Of a stretch of 64,000 nucleotides of DNA, positions 47,635 to 64,000 are shown piece after piece (within the stretch, counting starts at the first letter, position 1; each line of letters starts with the position of its first letter). A program made the translations under genes and the position numbers. The notes under the pieces are model-generated. The model did not search any database, had not been told where the DNA came from, and saw only the letters and a program-made list of their open reading frames with translations. The stretch spans positions 168,916,853 through 168,980,852 of the forward strand of contig NC_134950.1 in assembly GCF_965638725.1 (NCBI RefSeq). The letters run 5' to 3'. This DNA comes from Aptenodytes patagonicus (lineage: Eukaryota; Chordata; Aves; Sphenisciformes; Spheniscidae).

Positions 47635-50821
<3,187 letters not shown>

Positions 50822-53114: not shown

Positions 53115-54940
53115 AGCCCCTGCCCGCCCCTGCCCACAGCCCCCGCCCGCCGCTGCCCGCCCCTGCCCGCAGCCCCTGCCCACAGCCCCCGCCCGCCTCT
53201 GCCCGCCCCTGCCCACAGCCCCTGCCCGCCGCTGCCCGCCCCCCCGCCCGCTCCCTCTGTCCGCCGCTGCCCGCCCCTGCCCACAGCCCCCGCCCGCCTC
53301 TGCCCGCCCCTGCCCGCAGCCCCTGCCCACAGCCTCTGCCCGCCCCTGCCCGCCCCTGCCCACAGCCCCTGCCCACAGCCCCTGCCCGCAGCCCCTGCCG
53401 ACAGCCCCTGCCCGCCTCTGCCCAAAGCCTCTGCCCACAGCCCCTGCCCACAGCCTCTGCCCGCCCCTGCCGACAGCCCCTGCCCGCCTCTGCCCGCCCC
53501 GGCCGACAGCCCCTGCCCACAGCCTCTGCCCGCCCCTGCCCACAGCCCCCGCCCGCCTCTGCCCGCCCCTGCCCGCAGCCCCTGCCCACAGCCCCCGCCC
53601 GCCTCTGCCCGCCCCTGCCCACAGCCCCTGCCCGCCGCTGCCCGCCCCCCCGCCCGCTCCCTCTGTCCGCCGCTGCCCGCCCCTGCCCACAGCCCCCGCC
53701 CGCCTCTGCCCGCCCCTGCCCGCAGCCCCTGCCCACAGCCTCTGCCCGCCCCTGCCCGCCCCTGCCCACAGCCCCTGCCCACAGCCCCTGCCCGCAGCCC
53801 CTGCCGACAGCCCCTGCCCGCCTCTGCCCAAAGCCTCTGCCCACAGCCCCTGCCCACAGCCTCTGCCCGCCCCTGCCGACAGCCCCTGCCCGCCTCTGCC
53901 CGCCCCGGCCGACAGCCCCTGCCCACAGCCTCTGCCCGCCCCTGCCGACAGCCCCTGCCCGCCTCTGCCCGCCCCGGCCGACAGCCCCTGCCCACAGCCT
54001 CTGCCCGCCCCTGCCGACAGCCCCTGCCCGCAGCCCCTGCCCGCCCCTGCCCACAGCCTCTGCCCACAGCCCCTGCCCGCAGCCTCTGCCCGCCCCTGCC
54101 CGCAGCCCCTGCCGACAGCCCCTGCCCGCCTCTGCCCGCAGCCCCTGCCGACAGCCCCTGCCCGCCTCTGCCCGCAGCCCCTGCCCGCCGCTGCCCGCTC
54201 CCTCTGTCCGCCGCTGCCCGCCCCTGCCCGCAGCCCCTGCCCACAGTCCCCGCCCGCCTCTGCCCGCCCCTGCCCGCAGCCCCTGCCCACAGCCCCCGCC
54301 CGCCTCTGCCCGCCTCTGCCCGCAGCCCCTGCCCGCCGCTGCCCGCCCCCCCGCCCGCTCCCTCTGTCCGCCGCTGCCCGCCCCTGCCCACAGCCCCCGC
54401 CCGCCTCTGCCCGCCCCTGCCCGCAGCCCCTGCCCACAGCCTCTGCCCGCCCCTGCCCGCAGCCCCTGCCCGCCTCTGCCCGTCTCTGCCCGCAGCCCCT
54501 GCCGACAGCCCCTGCCCGCCTCTGCCCACAGCCCCTGCCCGCAGCCCCTGCCCGCCCCTGCCCACAGCCCCTGCCCACAGCCCCTGCCCGCCCCTGCCCA
54601 CAGCCCCCGCCCGCCTCTGCCCGCCCCTGCCCGCAGCCCCTGCCGACAGCCCCTGCCCGCCTCTGCCCGCAGCCCCTGCCCGCCGCTGCCCGCTCCCTCT
54701 GTCCGCCGCTGCCCGCCCCTGCCCACAGCCCCCGCCCGCCTCTGCCCGCCCCTGCCCACAGCCTCTGCCCGCCCCTGCCCGCAGCCCCTGCCCGCAGCCC
54801 CTGCCCACAGCCTCTGCCCGCCCCTGCCCGCAGCCCCTGCCCGCAGCCCCTGCCCACAGCCCCTGCCCGCCCCTGCCCGCAGCCCCTGCCCCTGCCCGCC
54901 CCTGCCTGCCCGTGCCCACAGCCCCCCTGCCCGCAGCCCC
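53115..54940. repeat. 1.8-kb C-rich hierarchical minisatellite
   Basis: Built from short units such as CCCCTGCCCGCAG, CCCCTGCCCACAG, CCTCTGCCCGC and CCCCTGCCGACAG. These are organised in larger repeats: a 406-bp block (about 53185-53540) recurs at about 53591-53946 without a difference I could see, and a 70-bp unit is tandem at about 53858-54025. The marker string CTCCCTCTGTCCGCC recurs at 53251, 53657, 54198, 54358 and 54693. The minus strand is rich in GGGG and GGG runs and could form G-quadruplexes. Almost no stop codons occur, so frames of 650-690 codons are open on both strands; these are not genes. Confidence 0.97.
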
Positions 54941-57229
54941 TGGAACCTGCGAAACGGGCAGCTGGGCGCCGCCCTGCCCGAAACTGGGTGCGTTTCCCCG
55001 TGCCCCGAGCACGGCTGGGCAGGAATAGTTGGGGTTTGCAAAACATGGAGACTTTGGGTTGAACCTGGCGACTTGTTTCACCCCAAAAAGTGGGGGTTTA
55101 GGCCGCCGGTTTTAGGATGGAAAAGCAGGCTGCAGCTTTTCCTGCAACTTGGGGGCTTTTCGCTTTGAAAGCTTCTCATGTCAGTGTAAACCCACGCTTC
55201 GACATCAAGTGGAAGCTTTGCTAAAGCAAAGGGCAAAGACAGAGCCCGGCTTTCCCTCGGTCTGATTTTCTTTTTCCTGCCAGTGAATTGACTTATTGAC
55301 TATTTTTTCCTGAATTTCAGCTTTCAAGCAGAGCTCACTCTGCCCCCGCTGTGTGCCGGGCAGTGGATTTTGAAGCCCAAAGGCAACCTAGAAATTGCTC
55401 CTGACTTCAACTGAACCGAACTCTGGAGCAGGAGGAAAAATCCCCTGGGATCCTGAAGACGCCTAAAACCCTCCCCTAAACCCGGGGGCAGCTTGTCAGA
55501 GCAAAACAGCAAAGAAAAGTCCTTTTCTCCAAAAACCCTGCCCGGTTTTGTAGTGCTCCGGTGGCGGTGTTCGTGATTCCCCATCTCCGAGCGCGGGGGG
55601 AAGCAGAGCTGCTGCTCCTGCAAGGCCACCCCGCAGCTGACACACGGCATTTTCGGCAGCACAAAAGAAAGCGGCTCGGATAACTGTTTGTTAGTACCGC
55701 TGCGTCTCTCTAAATGTGCTTCCCATTATGGGTAATCTGGTTACTTTAATTGCCAAAGCCATTAAGGCTCTGCAGAGTCTGGAAAAAAAAAAAGCAAGCT
55801 ATGCAATTACCAGCTCCCGAATTGAGTTAAAACCTTGTAATGAATTACAGTGAAGGCTACTTTCTCCGGTGACTCTCCGAGGCACATTTCATTCCTTGCA
55901 GCTCTGCGCGATATGTGCTTCAGGGGAGAAACTCAATTAAAAACAAAAACTTATTTCATTTTAATTTCTGGGCTAAAGAAACTGCTGTCACCTGTAGCGT
56001 CCCTGCGTGCGTGCCTGGTGCCTCGGCTTTGCGAGCGGCTTCTTGCTCTGTCCTAATGTGTGTGTTACCCATATATAGTGATTATAGGATATCTTTTAAA
56101 TGCAAGCACGCGTGTACACCAGCTGATGGTGGCGAACATGGAAATGGGTAAAAATAACCTATTTCTCTCTGTGGATCCACCTGCCACGGGGCAGGTTGGG
56201 TGCGGAGCTGTGGCCATCGCTGCTGCTCCGTTCTCCCGTTTTTACCGGGGTGGTTTGGGGTTTATAAAGCGCAACCGGGATTGGTACGGGGAATGGCCTT
56301 GGCACGGTCAGGGTGTTCCCCATGGCCCCGTTCGGTAGTGAGACGAGGGAAATGAGCCGGAGGGTGACCACTCACCGACTGTGGTGCTCTAAAACCTCTC
56401 CGATAAACCAGTTTATCAGAGACACCTTTGACAGGCGAGCGAAGGGTCATGCCGTGAAGCTGTCGCCAAAACGTCCCCGTGGCAGTGCCAGGAGCCTGGC
56501 ACATCTCTGCTGTGGCCGATCTCTGTTTGCACGTTCAACCACGGCAATAAGCTCTTTATCCCAGTACCACTTGCAAGGCTTCGCTGCTGCCTGCAAAGAC
56601 ATGTGATTGTCCCCACGGAGCTGCCAGCGCCCGCCGGCCCCGGCCGTGTCCCCGCCGGTAGCCGTTTCTGCTCTTGCAGGGGATGAGGATCCTGCAGCAT
56701 CCAAGTAGCACGTGGCTTATTCAGATTTACTGGAAAAAATGCAGATTTCTGCGCTGAGGTCTCAGCCCCAGGAGCCTCTCAGTGCAGAGACCAAGCGAGT
56801 CCAATCCTGCCTGCGGGAGCTGGGAGGTGGGCAGGGTGGACATCATCTTAATATCCATCTGTCAGGCAGCGGCAGATGTTTCCACTAACTAAAGCTTTCA
56901 GAAAACAAAATAACAAGAGGGAGCTTGTTGCCACATCTGGGGTTGGGATGCAGCAAACCCAGGACCAACAGGGGAAAAGGCATTAGGGACAAATTGCTTG
57001 TGTGGGAGGAGATGGGGTGGAGAAAAGGGGAGGATCGAGATGGACAGGGGAAAAGCACGCATGGAAAAAGGGAGAGACGAAGGGCAAAAGGAACTGGTTA
57101 TATTTAAGCAAGTGGCTGGTCTGTGTGCTCCTCCAGGTGACCCTGGTCTAGCACATCCCAGAAAAACCTGCTTCAGACTATTTTGTGGGTGGTCTCACCA
57201 CCCAGCCTGTGCACGCTGGGGTGCGCGGG
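54941..57229. other. Intergenic, no gene recognised
   Basis: Single-copy-looking sequence between the minisatellite and the LTR. I looked here for exons that would precede the kinase exon at 57850 (glycine loop, VAIK lysine) and saw none. No repeat was recognised. Confidence 0.5.
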
Positions 57230-57786
57230 TGTCGTGGTTTAACCTCAGTCGGCAACTGAGCACCACGCAGCTGCTCACTCACTCCCCCCCCACCCGGTGG
57301 GATGGGGGAGAGAATTGGAAGAGCACAAGTGAGAAAAACTTGTGGGTTGAGATAAAAACAGTTTAGTAATTGAAACAAAATGATAATATTAATAATATAA
57401 TAATAATAATACACAAAGCAAGTGATGCACAGTGCAATTGCTCACCACCCGCCGACCGATGCCCAGCCAGTCCCTGAGCAGTGGCCCCCCTGGCCAGCTT
57501 TCCCCAGTTGATGTACTGAGCATGACGTCCCATGGTATGGAATGTCCCTTTGGCCAGTTGGGGTCAGCTGTCCTGGCCGTGCCCCCTCCCAGCTTCTTGT
57601 GCACTTTCAGCCTGCTCAGTCGGTAGAGCATGGAAAACTAAAAAGTCCTTGGCTCGTGTAAGCATTACCTAGCAACAACTAAAACATCGGTGTGTTATCA
57701 ACATTGTTCTCATCCTAAATCCAAAACACAGCACTGTACCAGCTACTAGGAAGGAAATTAACTCTATCCCTGCTGAAACCAGGACA
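57230..57786 (+). mobile_element. Endogenous retrovirus LTR, avian family
   Basis: 557 bp starting TGTCGTGGTTTAACC and ending AAACCAGGACA, that is TG...CA termini. The internal (TAATAA)-rich stretch and the ATGACGTCCCATGGTATGGAA block are ones I recall from common bird ERV LTRs. No duplication of the five flanking bases is seen directly (GCGGG before, AGAAT after). Four bases after the end is TGGTGCCC (57791-57798), which resembles the start of a tRNA primer-binding site, so this may be a 5' LTR rather than a solo LTR. I see no retroviral gene. Confidence 0.85.
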
Positions 57787-57790
57787 AGAA

Positions 57791-57798
57791 TGGTGCCC
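57791..57798 (+). promoter_or_regulatory. Primer-binding-site-like octamer after the LTR
   Basis: TGGTGCCC, four bases after the LTR terminus, matches the usual TGG-initial form and position of a retroviral PBS. The following bases do not obviously continue a tRNA complement, so this is weak. Confidence 0.25.
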
Positions 57799-57849
57799 TT
57801 GGGCATGCAGATAGGACGCCTCTGGTTTCTATCCCCTTTCTTCTACCAG

Positions 57850-58073
57850 GACATCGTACTCAGAAGTGGAGGTTCGAGATTACCTGTGGCAGATCCTCAG
57901 TGCCATTGAGTATCTCCACACACACAGCATCCTGCACTTGGATCTCAGATCTGAAAACATGATCGTCACCGAGCCCAACCTGCTGAAACTCCTGGATTTT
58001 GGCAATGCACAGTTCTACACACAAGACAAAGTCATTACCATGGACAAGTGCACAGACTATGTTGAAACCATGG
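57850..58073 (+). CDS. Orphan protein-kinase exon, SPEG/obscurin type
   Basis: A 224-bp exon with an excellent acceptor (CCCCTTTCTTCTACCAG) and a consensus donor (GTGAGT). It encodes 74 codons with one-base overhangs: SYSEVEVRDYLWQILSAIEY, then LHTHSILHLDLRSENMIVTE and LLKLLDFGNAQF, ending CTDYVETM plus G. This is the kinase catalytic core: the HRD motif appears as HLD with the catalytic aspartate kept, SEN replaces the usual PEN with the Asn kept, and DFG is intact. The ETM-G end would continue as the APE-motif Ala in the next exon. The wording is closest to my memory of the second kinase domain of SPEG and of obscurin. I found neither the upstream lobe exons nor the APE exon nearby. It is either a surviving exon of a lost or dispersed gene, an exon of a gene with distant partners, or a segment carried by the flanking retroelement. 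Confidence 0.7.
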
Positions 58074-58125
58074 GTGAGTACAGAGTTCAGTCACAGCAAC
58101 CTTGGCCTTGTATGCAATCTGTGGT

Positions 58126-58149
58126 AGACAGACAGACAGACAGACAGAG
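58126..58149. repeat. (ACAG)n microsatellite
   Basis: About six copies of the tetranucleotide, 50 bp downstream of the orphan kinase exon. Confidence 0.9.
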
Positions 58150-58216
58150 CCATTGGTCAAAGCAGCAGTTGGCCCCAGCAAGCAAATTCTCCCAGGTGCT
58201 GCCCTCCAGGGGCAGC

Positions 58217-58243
58217 AACTCTATCCCTGCCGAAATCAGGACA
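58217..58243 (+). mobile_element. 27-bp copy of the LTR 3' terminus
   Basis: This stretch matches the last 27 bases of the LTR at 57760-57786 in 25 of 27 positions, also ending AGGACA. Upstream similarity stops abruptly. The next bases are GCGTG, which resemble the GCGGG before the LTR start (4 of 5). It may be the remnant of a 3' LTR. Confidence 0.5.
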
Positions 58244-58249
58244 GCGTGA

Positions 58250-60239
58250 CCCACCAGCAATCTTCACGTGGTGCTGACGCAGATCCTCAGTCCCAGCGGC
58301 TCTGGCTGTCCCTAGCATGGTGCCTGACTTGAGCTATACAAGAGCAGGTCGTACTTCTCAAGGAGGGGTGCTGGGTCCCCACAGCACCCGTGGCAGGAGG
58401 CACTGCGGTCCTGATGGGTACCTCAGATGCCAAAGCCCAGCTCTGGGTGCAGGCGCCAGTTGTAGATGTTGTGGAGGGACACGGCGCGGAGATGATTCCT
58501 CCAGTGCTGTCACCCGCTGATCGACACCAGGAAAGGCAAAACAAAACCAGGGAGGTCACACTGAGCTCACGTTTCCTGCCCACGCTCTTACACAAGCAAA
58601 AGACGTTCCTAAAAGCCTGATTCAAGCCTCTGGCAGGATGGGAACTGCCTGCGGTGGAGAAGAAGCTCCTGTAAGTGCATTTTCTGCTTCTTGCTTGTAG
58701 ACAAAGCTGCATGAGAAACCTGGAGAGGTTCTCTTTGCTTCTTGAAAGTTAGCCAGCTCGTAAGCACTGAAGTTCCGGCAGACTTAGGATTAATTTCTGG
58801 GCTCAGCCCATGTTGCATCCGTTAGTTCTCCGCTACGAGCTATGGGATGGGGATGTGAACGTCACTGCCAGCGTGATACGGAGGAGGGAAGACGTGGCAG
58901 AGGGAGAAAAGGCATCTTGGTGGGCTGGAAGAGACCCAGAAATGGAAATTTTGGGGATGGCTCGTCCTGATGTGAGTGCAGAGGGTGTGTGTGTGGGAGG
59001 TGTTTAGGCGTCTCGCTGGGTATTGCTGCGACCAGAAGGGTGGGCAGCTTTCATTTTCTCTTGAAGGCATACAGTCAGAACTGCATATGGCTACGGATGA
59101 ATTTCTTCCAAAACATGAAACAGAAAAAAAACCCGCTCATTCCCAGAAAAGTCTTTTTCTGGCACTCTTCCGTGGCAGACCTCTGCTCTCCGCAGCTGCT
59201 CTGTCTGAAGTGTCCCGCAGCACTCATGAAAGAACTGCGAGACAGCAAGAAAACATTTCAATCCAGCTCAAACCAGATTTTCTTTTCTTTTCAGCCACCT
59301 GGAATTGCCTGGAATGGATATTTAAGCAATTTTAGACATGGGACCGCAACAGGTACGTCCACAGCTTCACCCCTTACGGCTGCACACCCACAGGCATCCT
59401 CAGCACCCCGCTCCAAGCCTTGAGTGCTTTGCTTAACCCGCTTGGGGTGCAGGGGCTCCCCTTTCCCGGGGTGTTTGTGGGGAGGGAGCCGTCCCTAGAA
59501 GGTGCAGAACCACCGTGGGGTATGTCCTCCTCAGGATGTGTAGCACAACCAGGGACCAACAGCTTCATTGCAGGTCTCTTGGGCTATGGGAGAAACAGGT
59601 CCTTGGGGAGAGCAAGTCAAGAGTGGCTGAAGCAGGGAACTACACAACCATGCCTGTTTTGGGATTGCTGGAAAAATGAGTCCCGGGGGGGATGGTGGGC
59701 AGCTTTGGCCATGGCTGAAAACCGGTGTGTTTTAGGGCTGGAGGAGTATTTGCGCTGTTCTTCCCTGTGACAGCCCTGGTTTGCTGCCAGAGCCTGGAGA
59801 TTAGTCTTGGTTTTTAAAACTCACATTAACCTTCATGGCACTGACGGGAGGTGGTTCAGGCAGATCCCATCTTCCACCATGGGCGATGGGCTCTTCAGCG
59901 ACGGCCGTTGCCCAGTTTGGGTGGCTTTTGGAAGATGAAACCCCCATAGTGTTCTTGTGTGGGGTTTTTATTCTGAAAATCAGACTCCAGAAATAGGAAG
60001 CTCTCCAAATCAGTCACCGTTTCCTGAAATCTGGGCTGCAGCTGTCTAAACACTGACGCCAGCCTGCAGTCCACACAGCCCTTGCCCTCCTTGGTCAGCA
60101 GGGTTTCAACCCATGCTTCACCTCACGCAGGATCGACTCCAGCAACATCCTTCCAGCTAAATCTAACCTCTACCTCTAACCTGGATTCAGGAGTTGATTC
60201 TGGTACCTACGTGTCCTTACCGTGGATGAGGCTTTGAGC
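58250..60239. other. ACKR2 upstream region, no further gene recognised
   Basis: Searched for the kinase APE exon and for upstream ACKR2 exons. One exon-like segment is listed separately at 59295-59352. Open frames such as the one at 58390-58620 show no family similarity I trust. Confidence 0.45.
59295..59352 (+). other. ACKR2: Candidate 5' exon of ACKR2
   Basis: 58 bp bounded by a strong acceptor (TCTTTTCTTTTCAG) and donor (CAACAG|GTACGT). It contains ATG at 59338 followed by GGACCGCAACAG (M-G-P-Q-Q, phase 0). Joined to the main exon at 60902 the frame is wrong. Joined at the weaker AAAG acceptor ending at 60930 it reads in frame into VATATTTATLLDAAN, giving about 367 residues. It may instead be 5' UTR. 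Confidence 0.3.
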
Positions 60240-60345
60240 AACCTGGTCTAGTGGAAGGTGTCCCTGCCCATGGCAGGGGGGTTGGAACTAGGTGATCTTT
60301 AAGGTCCCTTCGAACCCAAACCATCCTATGATTCTGTGGTTCTGT
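60240..60345 (+). mobile_element. CR1 LINE short 3' fragment
   Basis: About 105 bp: 'CATGGCAGGGGGGTTGGAAC' through CCTATGATTCTGTGGTTCTG octamers. Forward orientation, heavily 5'-truncated, about 550 bp upstream of the ACKR2 main exon. Confidence 0.93.
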
Positions 60346-60901
60346 ATTTTCCACTTACTAATATCTTTTACAAGAATCCATGGCTTTGTGTCCTCGAGTT
60401 GGCACGGAGAGGGGTCAGTGTCCTACCAGGAGCAGTAGGCTGGGAGCAGCCCCATCAACATAAAGGTGCCGGTGGCAGGTTCTGCTTCACCGAGAACTGA
60501 GATGCCGCTTTCTCAGTAGCGACCCGGGTGAATCTAAAGCAGCTCACAGCGAGGTGTGGTGGTGGATTTCCCATAATTTAGAGCAGAAACTTCCTCAAAG
60601 CTTGCAGTGGTGTCAGGAGGAAGTGGTGAGTTATGTCAGAGGAGACCGTGCTCATTTACTTTCAAGTTTTAATGTGTCAGACTAAGGAAACCAGAATGAT
60701 GGTTTTTTTATATGTATGTGTAGACAGCTGTCCCCATGCCGTAGGCAAAGGCCAAAGAGTGCAGGACACAAAATACTTATCAGAAGGTGGCAGAAATTTA
60801 AACCTACGAACTAGAGGAAAACCCTCCGCGGTGTGATATTTGTCTTTCTTGAGTGGATTGGAACAACATTTTGATCCCCTTCACTTGTCTTTTGTTCCTA
60901 G

Positions 60902-62019
60902 GCAGCCACTTGTCAAACGCAACTTCAAAGGTGGCAACAGCAACCACCACTGCCACCTTGCTGGATGCTGCCAATTCGAGCGACTACCCGTACGAGTACT
61001 TGGACGAGGAGGATTACATGCAGCATGGCCCCTGCACAAAAGAAGAGGTACTCTCCTTTAGCAGAGTATTCTTGCCATCTTTTTACACCGTGGTCTTCCT
61101 GGTTGGGTTGGCCGGGAATGTCCTCCTGTTTATTGTCCTCATTATGTACATCAAGAAGAAAAAGAAGATGACCGAGGTGTATCTGCTGAACCTGGTGGTT
61201 TCAGACTTCTTCTTGCTACTAACCCTTCCTTTTTGGGCTCTGCACATTGCTCAGTGGGTGACCTGGGACATATTGTGCCCAGCCTTAAATGCCATGTACA
61301 CTATGAATTTCTACAGTGGTATCTTTTTTGTGAGCTGCATGAGTCTGGACATGTATCTGCAGATAGTTCATGCTTGCTCTCCTCGCAGCTCCATGACACG
61401 GAGGAAGTCCATCTTTGTCTTGGTGGTGGTATGGGTCCTTTCCATACTTCTCTCCATTCCTGATGGCCTCTTCACCAGCACAAGGCAAATCCACAACAAA
61501 ACCATCATGTGTGCCCATGATTATGGCCAGAAACACTTATTTTGGAAAGTTGTCTTCCGGGTCATTCAAAACATCCTGGGTTTCCTTTTTCCCTTCCTCT
61601 TCATGGTGTTCTGCTATTCCCGCATAGCGTGTGTCCTCACCATGTCTCGGATGCCTGGCTCAAGGAGAGCACTCTGCTTAGTCTTTACTCTGGTGGGTGT
61701 CTTCTTTGTCCTGTGGTCCCCTTACAACATTGTCCTCATCCTTCACTCCCTGCAAGATGTTGGTGTGATCAGGACCTGTGAAAGCAGTAGGCAATTGGAC
61801 TATGCCATGCAGATCACAGAGAGTTTGTCCTTTGTCCACTGCTGTCTCAACCCCTTGCTCTATGCTTTTGTGAAAAAACGATTCAGGTTATATTTATGGA
61901 AGATCCCCCGGGCCATTTTCAGGAGAAGCGCTTTCTTTGACATCCAGCCTTCAGAGACAAGCCAGTCTTGCAGCAGATACGCAGCTGAGATAGAAATGTT
62001 GAGTATCACAAACGCATGA
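60902..62019 (+). CDS. ACKR2: ACKR2 (atypical chemokine receptor 2, D6), main coding exon
   Basis: ACKR2 is a seven-helix scavenger that internalises and degrades inflammatory CC chemokines without G-protein signalling. Seen here: an acidic Tyr-rich N-terminus (Tyr codons at 60985, 60991, 60997 and 61015; likely sulfated), helix 1 with GN, helix 2 (LLNLVVSDFF, TLPFW), helix 3 with NFYSGIFFVSCMSLD, helix 6 FVLWSPYN and helix 7 NPLLYAF. The DRY box is DMY followed by LQIV at 61348-61368, like the altered DKYLEIV of mammalian ACKR2. The tail is short and Ser-rich, ending SITNA before TGA at 62017. The frame has a TGA at 60850-60852 and no ATG before 61018, so the N-terminus must come from an upstream exon. 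The TTGTTCCTAG acceptor at 60901 fits, with phase 1 needed. AATAAA at 63112 or 63291 could end the mRNA. Confidence 0.92.
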
Positions 62020-63117
62020 TAAATATTTACATTATTTGCATTATGTGTATGCCCTCTATGCTGTATTTTACTGGTCCTGGCCACGGAATGGAGTTGCTGT
62101 GAGCCCACAGCACTGCGTAACCAGATATTTCATCCTACCGCCAGCATCGAGATGAGGATTTTCCACGTTGGGATTGGAAAAGTACACGAGATTCGTTTCT
62201 GTTATAACTGGAATTATTATAAAAGGATTGCCCTGGGTTTATGCTTGTGGAAGAAGCCCAGCTCCTGTCTGGAGTATGGGAGGCATTAGTGGAGGAAGGA
62301 GCAGCTTATCCAGACGTTGTGCCCTTAAAAATGCAAACTGAAACTTGTGCAGAACTTCTCCCCCATAGATCCCAAAGGGTCTGATGGAGGAGAGTGATCC
62401 CGTTATTCCTCCAGCTCGTGGTGTGGGCTGGGGAATGGATTTGCCACGCTCATCCATCAGGCCGGACACAGATGGCCAGAAGCCCAGCGTGGGGGGTGGC
62501 TTTGCTTCTCCTGGCTTTTGCCATGGGCCAGGTAGATGTCTTCAACTGGGCTCATCTCTGTGTCTACCAGGAGAGACAACGGGAGGAATTAGGCACCTTT
62601 AAACTGGGTTGTCTGACCAGCGATGGGTTTCTCCGTTATGATGAGCTGTGCCACACTCGCGTCTGCTGAGCAGGAAACTGTGTCTTTCCGAGGGACAGAT
62701 CATTGGTTAGAGATCAGTTCGATCATCAACTGAGCTGAGATCAGTTCGATCAGCAAAAAAGTTCAAACCAGTAACAACCAGTGAGAAAGAGAAAATAATG
62801 GGCTCAGCAGAACAGTGGTGGAGGTATTTGCCTTCCCGACGATCCGTTTTGACAAGATAAAAAAGATCCATGGATACCATCTTTAACATAAATATTGGCT
62901 TTGCAGTACCACAGAGGGGGAGCATGGCCTTCAACAGAAGAGCACGGATAGGCCAATCCTTATTACCCAGTGTAGCTTTAAAGTTATTAGTTTGCTGACC
63001 TTTATTTAAAAGTACTATTCACCCCAAATACTCTTGAAACTTAAATGGGCCCTTTCCAGCCTGGAAACCTATTGAGCATGGGAGTTGCCTGGAATTGTAC
63101 AAATAAAATTAATAATT
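62020..63117 (+). other. ACKR2: Probable ACKR2 3' UTR
   Basis: Sequence after the ACKR2 stop up to the first AATAAA (63112-63117). A second AATAAA lies at 63291-63296. It contains the small ORF listed separately. Confidence 0.4.
62472..62669 (+). CDS. Candidate small secreted protein, Kazal-like, 65 residues
   Basis: ATG opens MARSPAWGVALLLLAFAMGQ, a textbook signal peptide, then a short mature part with Cys at 30, 47, 60 and 65 and the stretch GCLTSDGFLRYDELCHTRVC, which resembles the CGSDGxTYxNEC core of Kazal inhibitor domains but with altered spacing. A possible donor (CCAG|GTAGAT) directly follows Gln20 in phase 0, so the signal peptide could also be a separate first exon. It lies 450 bp after the ACKR2 stop, so it may be chance coding in the 3' UTR. 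I do not recognise an orthologue. Confidence 0.25.
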   Translation: MARSPAWGVALLLLAFAMGQVDVFNWAHLCVYQERQREELGTFKLGCLTSDGFLRYDELCHTRVC

Positions 63118-63299
63118 TAAAAGAAAACACTAATTGCCTTAATTTTATTGCTAGACAAGGTTACTGGACCAAGAAGGGCTTTGAGTTGATCTGGAAGGGT
63201 GTTTTCACTGCTGTTATTTTTCTTGCCGACATTGCTACAGCGTGTTTCCAAAATAGTAAGGCCGGGAGCTTTCCTTAAAAAAAAAGCCAGAATAAATAT

Positions 63300-64000
63300 T
63301 TAGCTGATGTTATGATGTGGCCTTCACTCCACGGGTCAGGTCACTGGGAGGGAATGTGGAAGGGGAGAGCAGGAGAGATCGAGAAGCAGAAGAGAAAATG
63401 GGTAAAACTGTCGGGTACAGGGGCGGGAGCAGGAGGGCAGAGGGTCGGACGTGCTCCGCTGGCTGGAGGGGACACAACTGATTTGGAGCTGCCGAGCATC
63501 GGGTGTGCATGCATCGGCAGAGAAGAAAGTGCTGTCGTCCATCTGGGTGCCGCTGCTCTCCAGCCGGGAGGTGGGCTTGGCCATTTGTAGACTCCGGACT
63601 CATCTGGTGCAAAGCAAATGCAACTGATTCAAACCCTCATTGCTCACGGGGGGAGCAGACCTGCTTTGCTTTGCCCTCGTACGGGTTAGCAGTGCTTGTA
63701 CTGTTCGTTGGCAAAGCACTTATGGGGCACTGTGCGTTGGAGAACATCAAGATGTTGGAGACCTTTCCTTCTCTTGCCTTTTGAGACCAAATTAGCTCAG
63801 CTGTAACCCCCTTCCCTTGGTCCTGAGCAAATTTCCAGTAGCATTTCCAACATCCACTCTTCCTCTCATTTTTTCAGCCTGCAGCACGTGTCCATAGCCT
63901 GATCTTAAAGGCAGAAATTACTGAGTGAAATTCTCTGAACCCTCTTTTTTTTTTCAAAAACTGGGCTCCATGCAGCCTAGAAAAGGGAATTTGCTTGAGC
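63300..64000. other. Downstream of ACKR2, nothing recognised
   Basis: No exon of the expected next gene (CYP8B1 in the mammalian order) is visible before the window ends. Open frames are short and overlapping. Confidence 0.5.

Follow-up and report, generated by a model that had tools for sequence, protein, structure and literature searches.

A lone kinase exon upstream of the ACKR2 main exon in Aptenodytes patagonicus is probably a recent inverted copy from the neighbouring obscurin gene

Among templated sequence insertions, those of Class 2 are attributed to DNA-patch repair, and Onozawa and Aplan (2016, PMC5110952) give a size of 73-414 bp for experimental insertions which, according to one section heading, derive from RNA. 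Two further papers describe short-range template switching, in which a polymerase switches transiently to a nearby template (PMC7954356), and microhomology-mediated break-induced replication (PMC2621351), a related known process.

We analysed a 64,000-nt stretch of the A. patagonicus genome (the window, C2:168916853-168980852) together with a further 200 kb numbered in the same frame (264 kb in total), and searched the whole assembly (1.35 Gb, 618 contigs). A sequence-only reading of the window had pointed out a clean kinase exon with strong splice sites, no stop codon and a preserved catalytic Asp and DFG, and both the sequence and Pfam bear this out. The exon is uninterrupted, with exact limits at the acceptor TACCAG and the donor GTGAGT, and consists of a single open frame encoding TSYSEVEVRDYLWQ...HLDLRSENM...LLDFGNAQ...DYVETM, which includes the catalytic-loop Asp as well as the DFG. 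The Pfam Pkinase profile matches it over positions 94-157 of 263 (59.4 bits, E 4.6e-16). A search of a large protein database returned 27 relatives at 62-96% identity: 14 at 84-96%, one at 70% and 12 of the obscurin type at 62-68%, with one member of the last group bearing the name obscurin-RhoGEF (residue letters were inspected for 24 of the 27). Judged by these similarities, the exon is assigned to the obscurin kinase-2 type. A scan of viral contigs gave no relative.

Within the window this exon stands alone. The human obscurin C-terminus, used as a tblastn probe against the whole window at E up to 1, matched nothing else; in a second run the next match after it, among the matches listed, appeared only at E 1.3. 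Pfam searches of the three plus-strand frames of 54001-64000 gave, above the cut-offs, only two kinase models, both on the exon, and 7tm_1. The earlier statement that neighbouring lobe exons are missing thus extends to the entire window for this probe and threshold, and the kinase lobe exons found downstream of the window are minus-strand exons of the parental obscurin described below. Because no N-lobe or C-lobe exons accompany it, the window copy cannot encode a kinase.

The exon is not an orphan, as had been supposed: an identical copy, within an intact obscurin gene, lies beyond the window (Table 1). A genome-wide protein search with the exon yielded 30 matches (150 of 174 candidates scored), two of them full-length at 100% identity, namely the exon itself and C2:168991755-168991973 on the minus strand. 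The next match by E-value reaches 45% over residues 2-56; of the 28 matches beyond the perfect pair, 26 are at 34-43% and one shorter match is at 51%. At the DNA level, identity extends through flanking intron sequence to a block of 423 bp, inverted relative to its counterpart 17 kb away and identical at 423 of 423 positions, introns included; it stops sharply at both block edges. A genome-wide DNA search with these 423 bp, which skips very common words, found two candidates, both at 100% over 423. Of the repeats listed for the 264 kb, 108 rows with the block counted and minisatellite rows left out, none but the block is at 100%. The same sequence elsewhere in the genome, which had been proposed, together with absence of the exon from sister species, as the sign of a recent copy, is thus found by protein and DNA searches alike, and the suggestion that the exon arrived recently gains support from the perfect identity of the block to obscurin at this short distance.

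Table 1. Features of the window and of the adjoining obscurin region; positions are in the frame of the window and continue beyond its end at 64,000.
Feature	Position	Strand	Basis
Match to ACKR2 5′ exon of the Pelecanus crispus model (P0038), E 6e-22	56144-56278	plus	Gene-model homology
Old LTR, 557 bp; 3′ edge is left edge of copied block	57230-57786	plus	Genome search
Copied block, made up of obscurin intron (63 bp), kinase exon (224 bp) and the following obscurin intron (136 bp)	57787-58209	plus	423/423 identity
Window copy of the kinase-2 middle exon of obscurin, with catalytic loop and DFG	57850-58073	plus	Splice phase as in parent
Filler GGGCAGC, 7 bp, at right junction	58210-58216	plus	Junction comparison
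Second LTR tail, same family, 27 bp, 2 mismatches to left LTR tail	58217-58243	plus	Repeat comparison
ACKR2 start exon, 3′ of the copy; ATG at 58638	58597-58670	plus	Left limit inferred from Pelecanus model
ACKR2 second coding exon	59295-59352	plus	Homology to gene models
ACKR2 main coding exon, 7-transmembrane domain	60902-62016	plus	Pfam 7tm_1, named relatives
Parental block	75188-74766 (C2:168991618-168992040)	minus	Genome DNA search
Obscurin (OBSCN) kinase-2 exons	76823-76703, 76028-75789, 75125-74902, 74435-74360, 73875-73726, 71724-71547	minus	In order, canonical splice sites

The second copy is held by an intact obscurin kinase-2 domain. Its six exons, the C-terminal ones to which the gene as built here corresponds, join into an open stretch of 328 residues that ends in a stop codon and matches the Pfam Pkinase profile over positions 2-263 of 263 (170.5 bits). 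Further minus-strand matches of Ig type extend upstream to 218 kb in the window's frame (E 2.4e-5), and weaker ones to 249 kb (E 0.02). The acceptor, donor and phase of the window exon are those of the corresponding parental exon. Of the earlier assignment to a SPEG/obscurin-type kinase, the obscurin half therefore stands on a perfect genomic match, while SPEG is rejected as the parent, the next place by E-value being 45% identical. Nor is there support for the other exons of the gene having been moved away, as was also suggested: the parental obscurin is intact, downstream and on the other strand. It converges on ACKR2 tail to tail, with about 9.5 kb between its stop codon and the ACKR2 main exon. 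The obscurin region also contains repeats that are 96-98% identical over about 215-2095 bp (221991-236095 in the window's frame; top 25 of 108 rows) and are possibly recently duplicated Ig-exon units.

The two genes named earlier as flanking the exon, HIGD1A and ACKR2, are both confirmed. HIGD1A is recognized by its HIG_1_N domain on the minus strand at about 48489-48629, and ACKR2 by its main coding exon and its named relatives, with Aquila chrysaetos the closest at 92% (best 120 of 144 relatives). Upstream of the copied block, in addition to the Pelecanus match, ACKR2 models of other birds match at 56.5-56.8 kb (Leptosomus, a low-quality model, E 5e-15; Merops, E 2e-8; Pipra, E 0.011). Going by these gene models, the block would sit in the 5′ intron of ACKR2, on the sense strand. 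A possible alternative ACKR2 start exon at 58810-58971 matches models of Apus apus and Ara ararauna (P0036, P0102), and ACKR2 models therefore differ in their N-termini among birds. Between HIGD1A and ACKR2, 53115-54942 is a GC-rich minisatellite with a period of 406 and 4.3 copies at 85%, inside which smaller units of 13 and 23 bp recur; the open stretches of 657-701 codons that it presents in all six frames are a tandem-repeat artefact of ORF finding.

When the copied exon is joined to the ACKR2 acceptor at 58597 (ACACAAG, which looks weak and is placed from the Pelecanus model), the frame stays open through the ACKR2 start methionine. By our estimate, an open in-frame junction is expected about 1 time in 6 by chance (1/3 for phase, roughly 1/2 for the lack of a stop), and it is therefore no evidence of use. 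We consider it highly improbable that the copied exon would be spliced into ACKR2 transcripts. Were it so, the chemokine-scavenging receptor could gain an N-terminal extension consisting of a kinase fragment, or its translation could be altered by the new 5′ leader, and new-born exon sharing would have been caught in the act. Most likely the copied block does nothing.

The junctions of the block involve a long terminal repeat. A genome search with the LTR on the left gave 6303 first-look candidates, and the 40 that were scored comprise the LTR itself and 39 others at 93-95% identity. In 39 of these 40 rows, counting the window copy, the alignment runs to the very end of the query, and in one it stops 5 bases before it; the block therefore begins exactly at the LTR 3′ edge. 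No microhomology was seen at this left junction. On the right, the filler can alternatively be read as a 6-bp insertion plus a short microhomology with the parental CAAC, and beyond it follows the second LTR tail. The block lies between one full LTR on the left and a 27-bp tail on the right. GCGGG precedes the left LTR and GCGTG follows the second tail, a possible decayed target-site duplication. We do not accept that the insertion itself created the 27-bp tails as its target-site duplication, as they differ at 2 of 27 positions against 0 of 423 in the block. Neither end of the block carries a poly(A), and intron sequence is kept. By eye, the sequence between the LTR pieces contains no primer-binding site, polypurine tract or internal element sequence, and the parental edge of the block has no LTR in this assembly. 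The exact left edge at the LTR and the duplicated LTR tail would not be predicted by a random break, and hint at LTR involvement.

We compared all 27 protein relatives of the exon with both places and their flanks. Five score higher on the obscurin flanks than on those of the copy: on the left side, P0004 (208 vs 195 bits), P0005 (181 vs 166) and P0006 (183 vs 170); on the right side, P0009 (198 vs 189 bits) and, marginally, the second piece of P0027 (43.5 vs 41.2, a difference of 2.3 bits). For the remaining 22, the best matches score equally on both places and are uninformative. As these five favour the obscurin flanks, the parental arrangement is, from this comparison, taken to be the older one, with obscurin as the ancestral home of the block. 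The 14 relatives at 84-96% identity might be read as conservation of the window exon across birds; we reject this, since the discriminating relatives side with obscurin. These five, like the identity of the blocks, lend indirect support to a recent origin of the copy in this lineage. Avian substitution rates are 1.5-3e-9 per site and year, and at these assumed rates an insertion with 0 differences in 423 positions would be at most about 1.5-3 million years old, a figure that is void under gene conversion. Because the blocks are identical throughout, the intact splice sites and frame of the copy need no selection, and neither does its lack of decay if the copy is too young to show any. The intact look of the window copy is probably a matter of youth, not of selection.

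Taken together, these observations lead us to explain the lone exon as a part of obscurin that was recently duplicated, locally and in inverted orientation, into the edge of an old LTR in the ACKR2 5′ intron, with a probability of roughly 0.87. This reading draws on the two identical inverted copies, the retained introns, the absence of poly(A), the intact parent, and junctions that show an LTR edge and a filler. Repair of a break at this edge, or else replication template switching, would have copied 423 bp into ACKR2, the convergent neighbour of obscurin, with the nearby obscurin as template, and rejoining would have run through an LTR tail, possibly that of a different LTR. The template was most likely DNA, though the patch may instead have been made from unspliced obscurin RNA. 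An mRNA retrocopy or Class 1 (LINE-mediated) insertion is rejected: intron sequence is retained, poly(A) is absent, and the flanking 27-bp repeat differs at 2 bases.

An LTR element could have been directly involved, for example an LTR once resident in the obscurin intron on another haplotype or a retroviral read-through product, so that LTR and obscurin sequence travelled together or were united by LTR-LTR recombination. The exact coincidence of the left block edge with the LTR 3′ end, the recurrence of the LTR tail on the right and the resemblance of the GCGGG/GCGTG flanks to a decayed target-site duplication all speak for such a capture, but the parental edge lacks an LTR in this assembly, the family looks old (best other copy 95%; 40 scored of 6303 candidates) and the parts of an internal element were absent by eye, so that we regard it as unlikely. 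It is improbable that gene conversion between the inverted copies has kept an older insertion from diverging from obscurin. The copies share a chromosome, with only 17 kb between them, and the LTR tails around the block have diverged at 2 of 27 positions, as an older insertion would allow; conversion tracts, however, usually leave diverged ends, whereas here identity runs to the very edges and no diverged flanking homology is present.

The copied block is known from this one assembly alone, and a perfect inverted duplicate at such a distance in a single assembly is also what an assembly or read artefact could look like. A mis-join would not readily create an LTR edge, a filler and a second LTR tail that are not contiguous in the parent, and the block is bracketed by ACKR2 exons on one side and a match to other birds' ACKR2 5′ exon on the other; we therefore hold an artefact to be quite unlikely. 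Almost no weight falls on the idea that the exon is a remnant or part of a separate, unknown kinase gene between HIGD1A and ACKR2. The human locus is not known to have a kinase gene there, and an intact lone exon in such a place is what first makes the idea attractive, but the exon is obscurin base for base across 423 of 423 positions, and a complete parental kinase-2 domain lies nearby.

Explaining the apparent orphan as a fresh copy of a neighbouring gene means that there is no missing kinase to seek. It also cautions against reading function into a lack of decay where a perfect parent lies nearby. More broadly, a copying accident can plant an intact exon together with its splice sites in an intron of another gene, providing raw material for exon shuffling.

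Compared with the second kinase domain of obscurin, the window exon is the same in sequence, splice phases and exon limits; it differs in being one of six C-terminal exons, on the opposite strand and inside another gene. Our literature search found no published description of an obscurin-exon copy in ACKR2. Set against the Class 2 insertions as characterized in PMC5110952, the block is alike in being a short copy of genomic sequence with junction filler, a mark of end joining, and no poly(A). Unlike them, it has its source 17 kb away rather than at a distant site, and on its left side it abuts the edge of an LTR exactly, while another LTR tail follows on its right. A transient switch to a nearby template, as outlined in PMC7954356, would fit the obscurin copy in a comparison made by junction anatomy only. 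Short templated insertions are already known (PMC5110952), and the obscurin-exon copy is an ordinary case of this kind.
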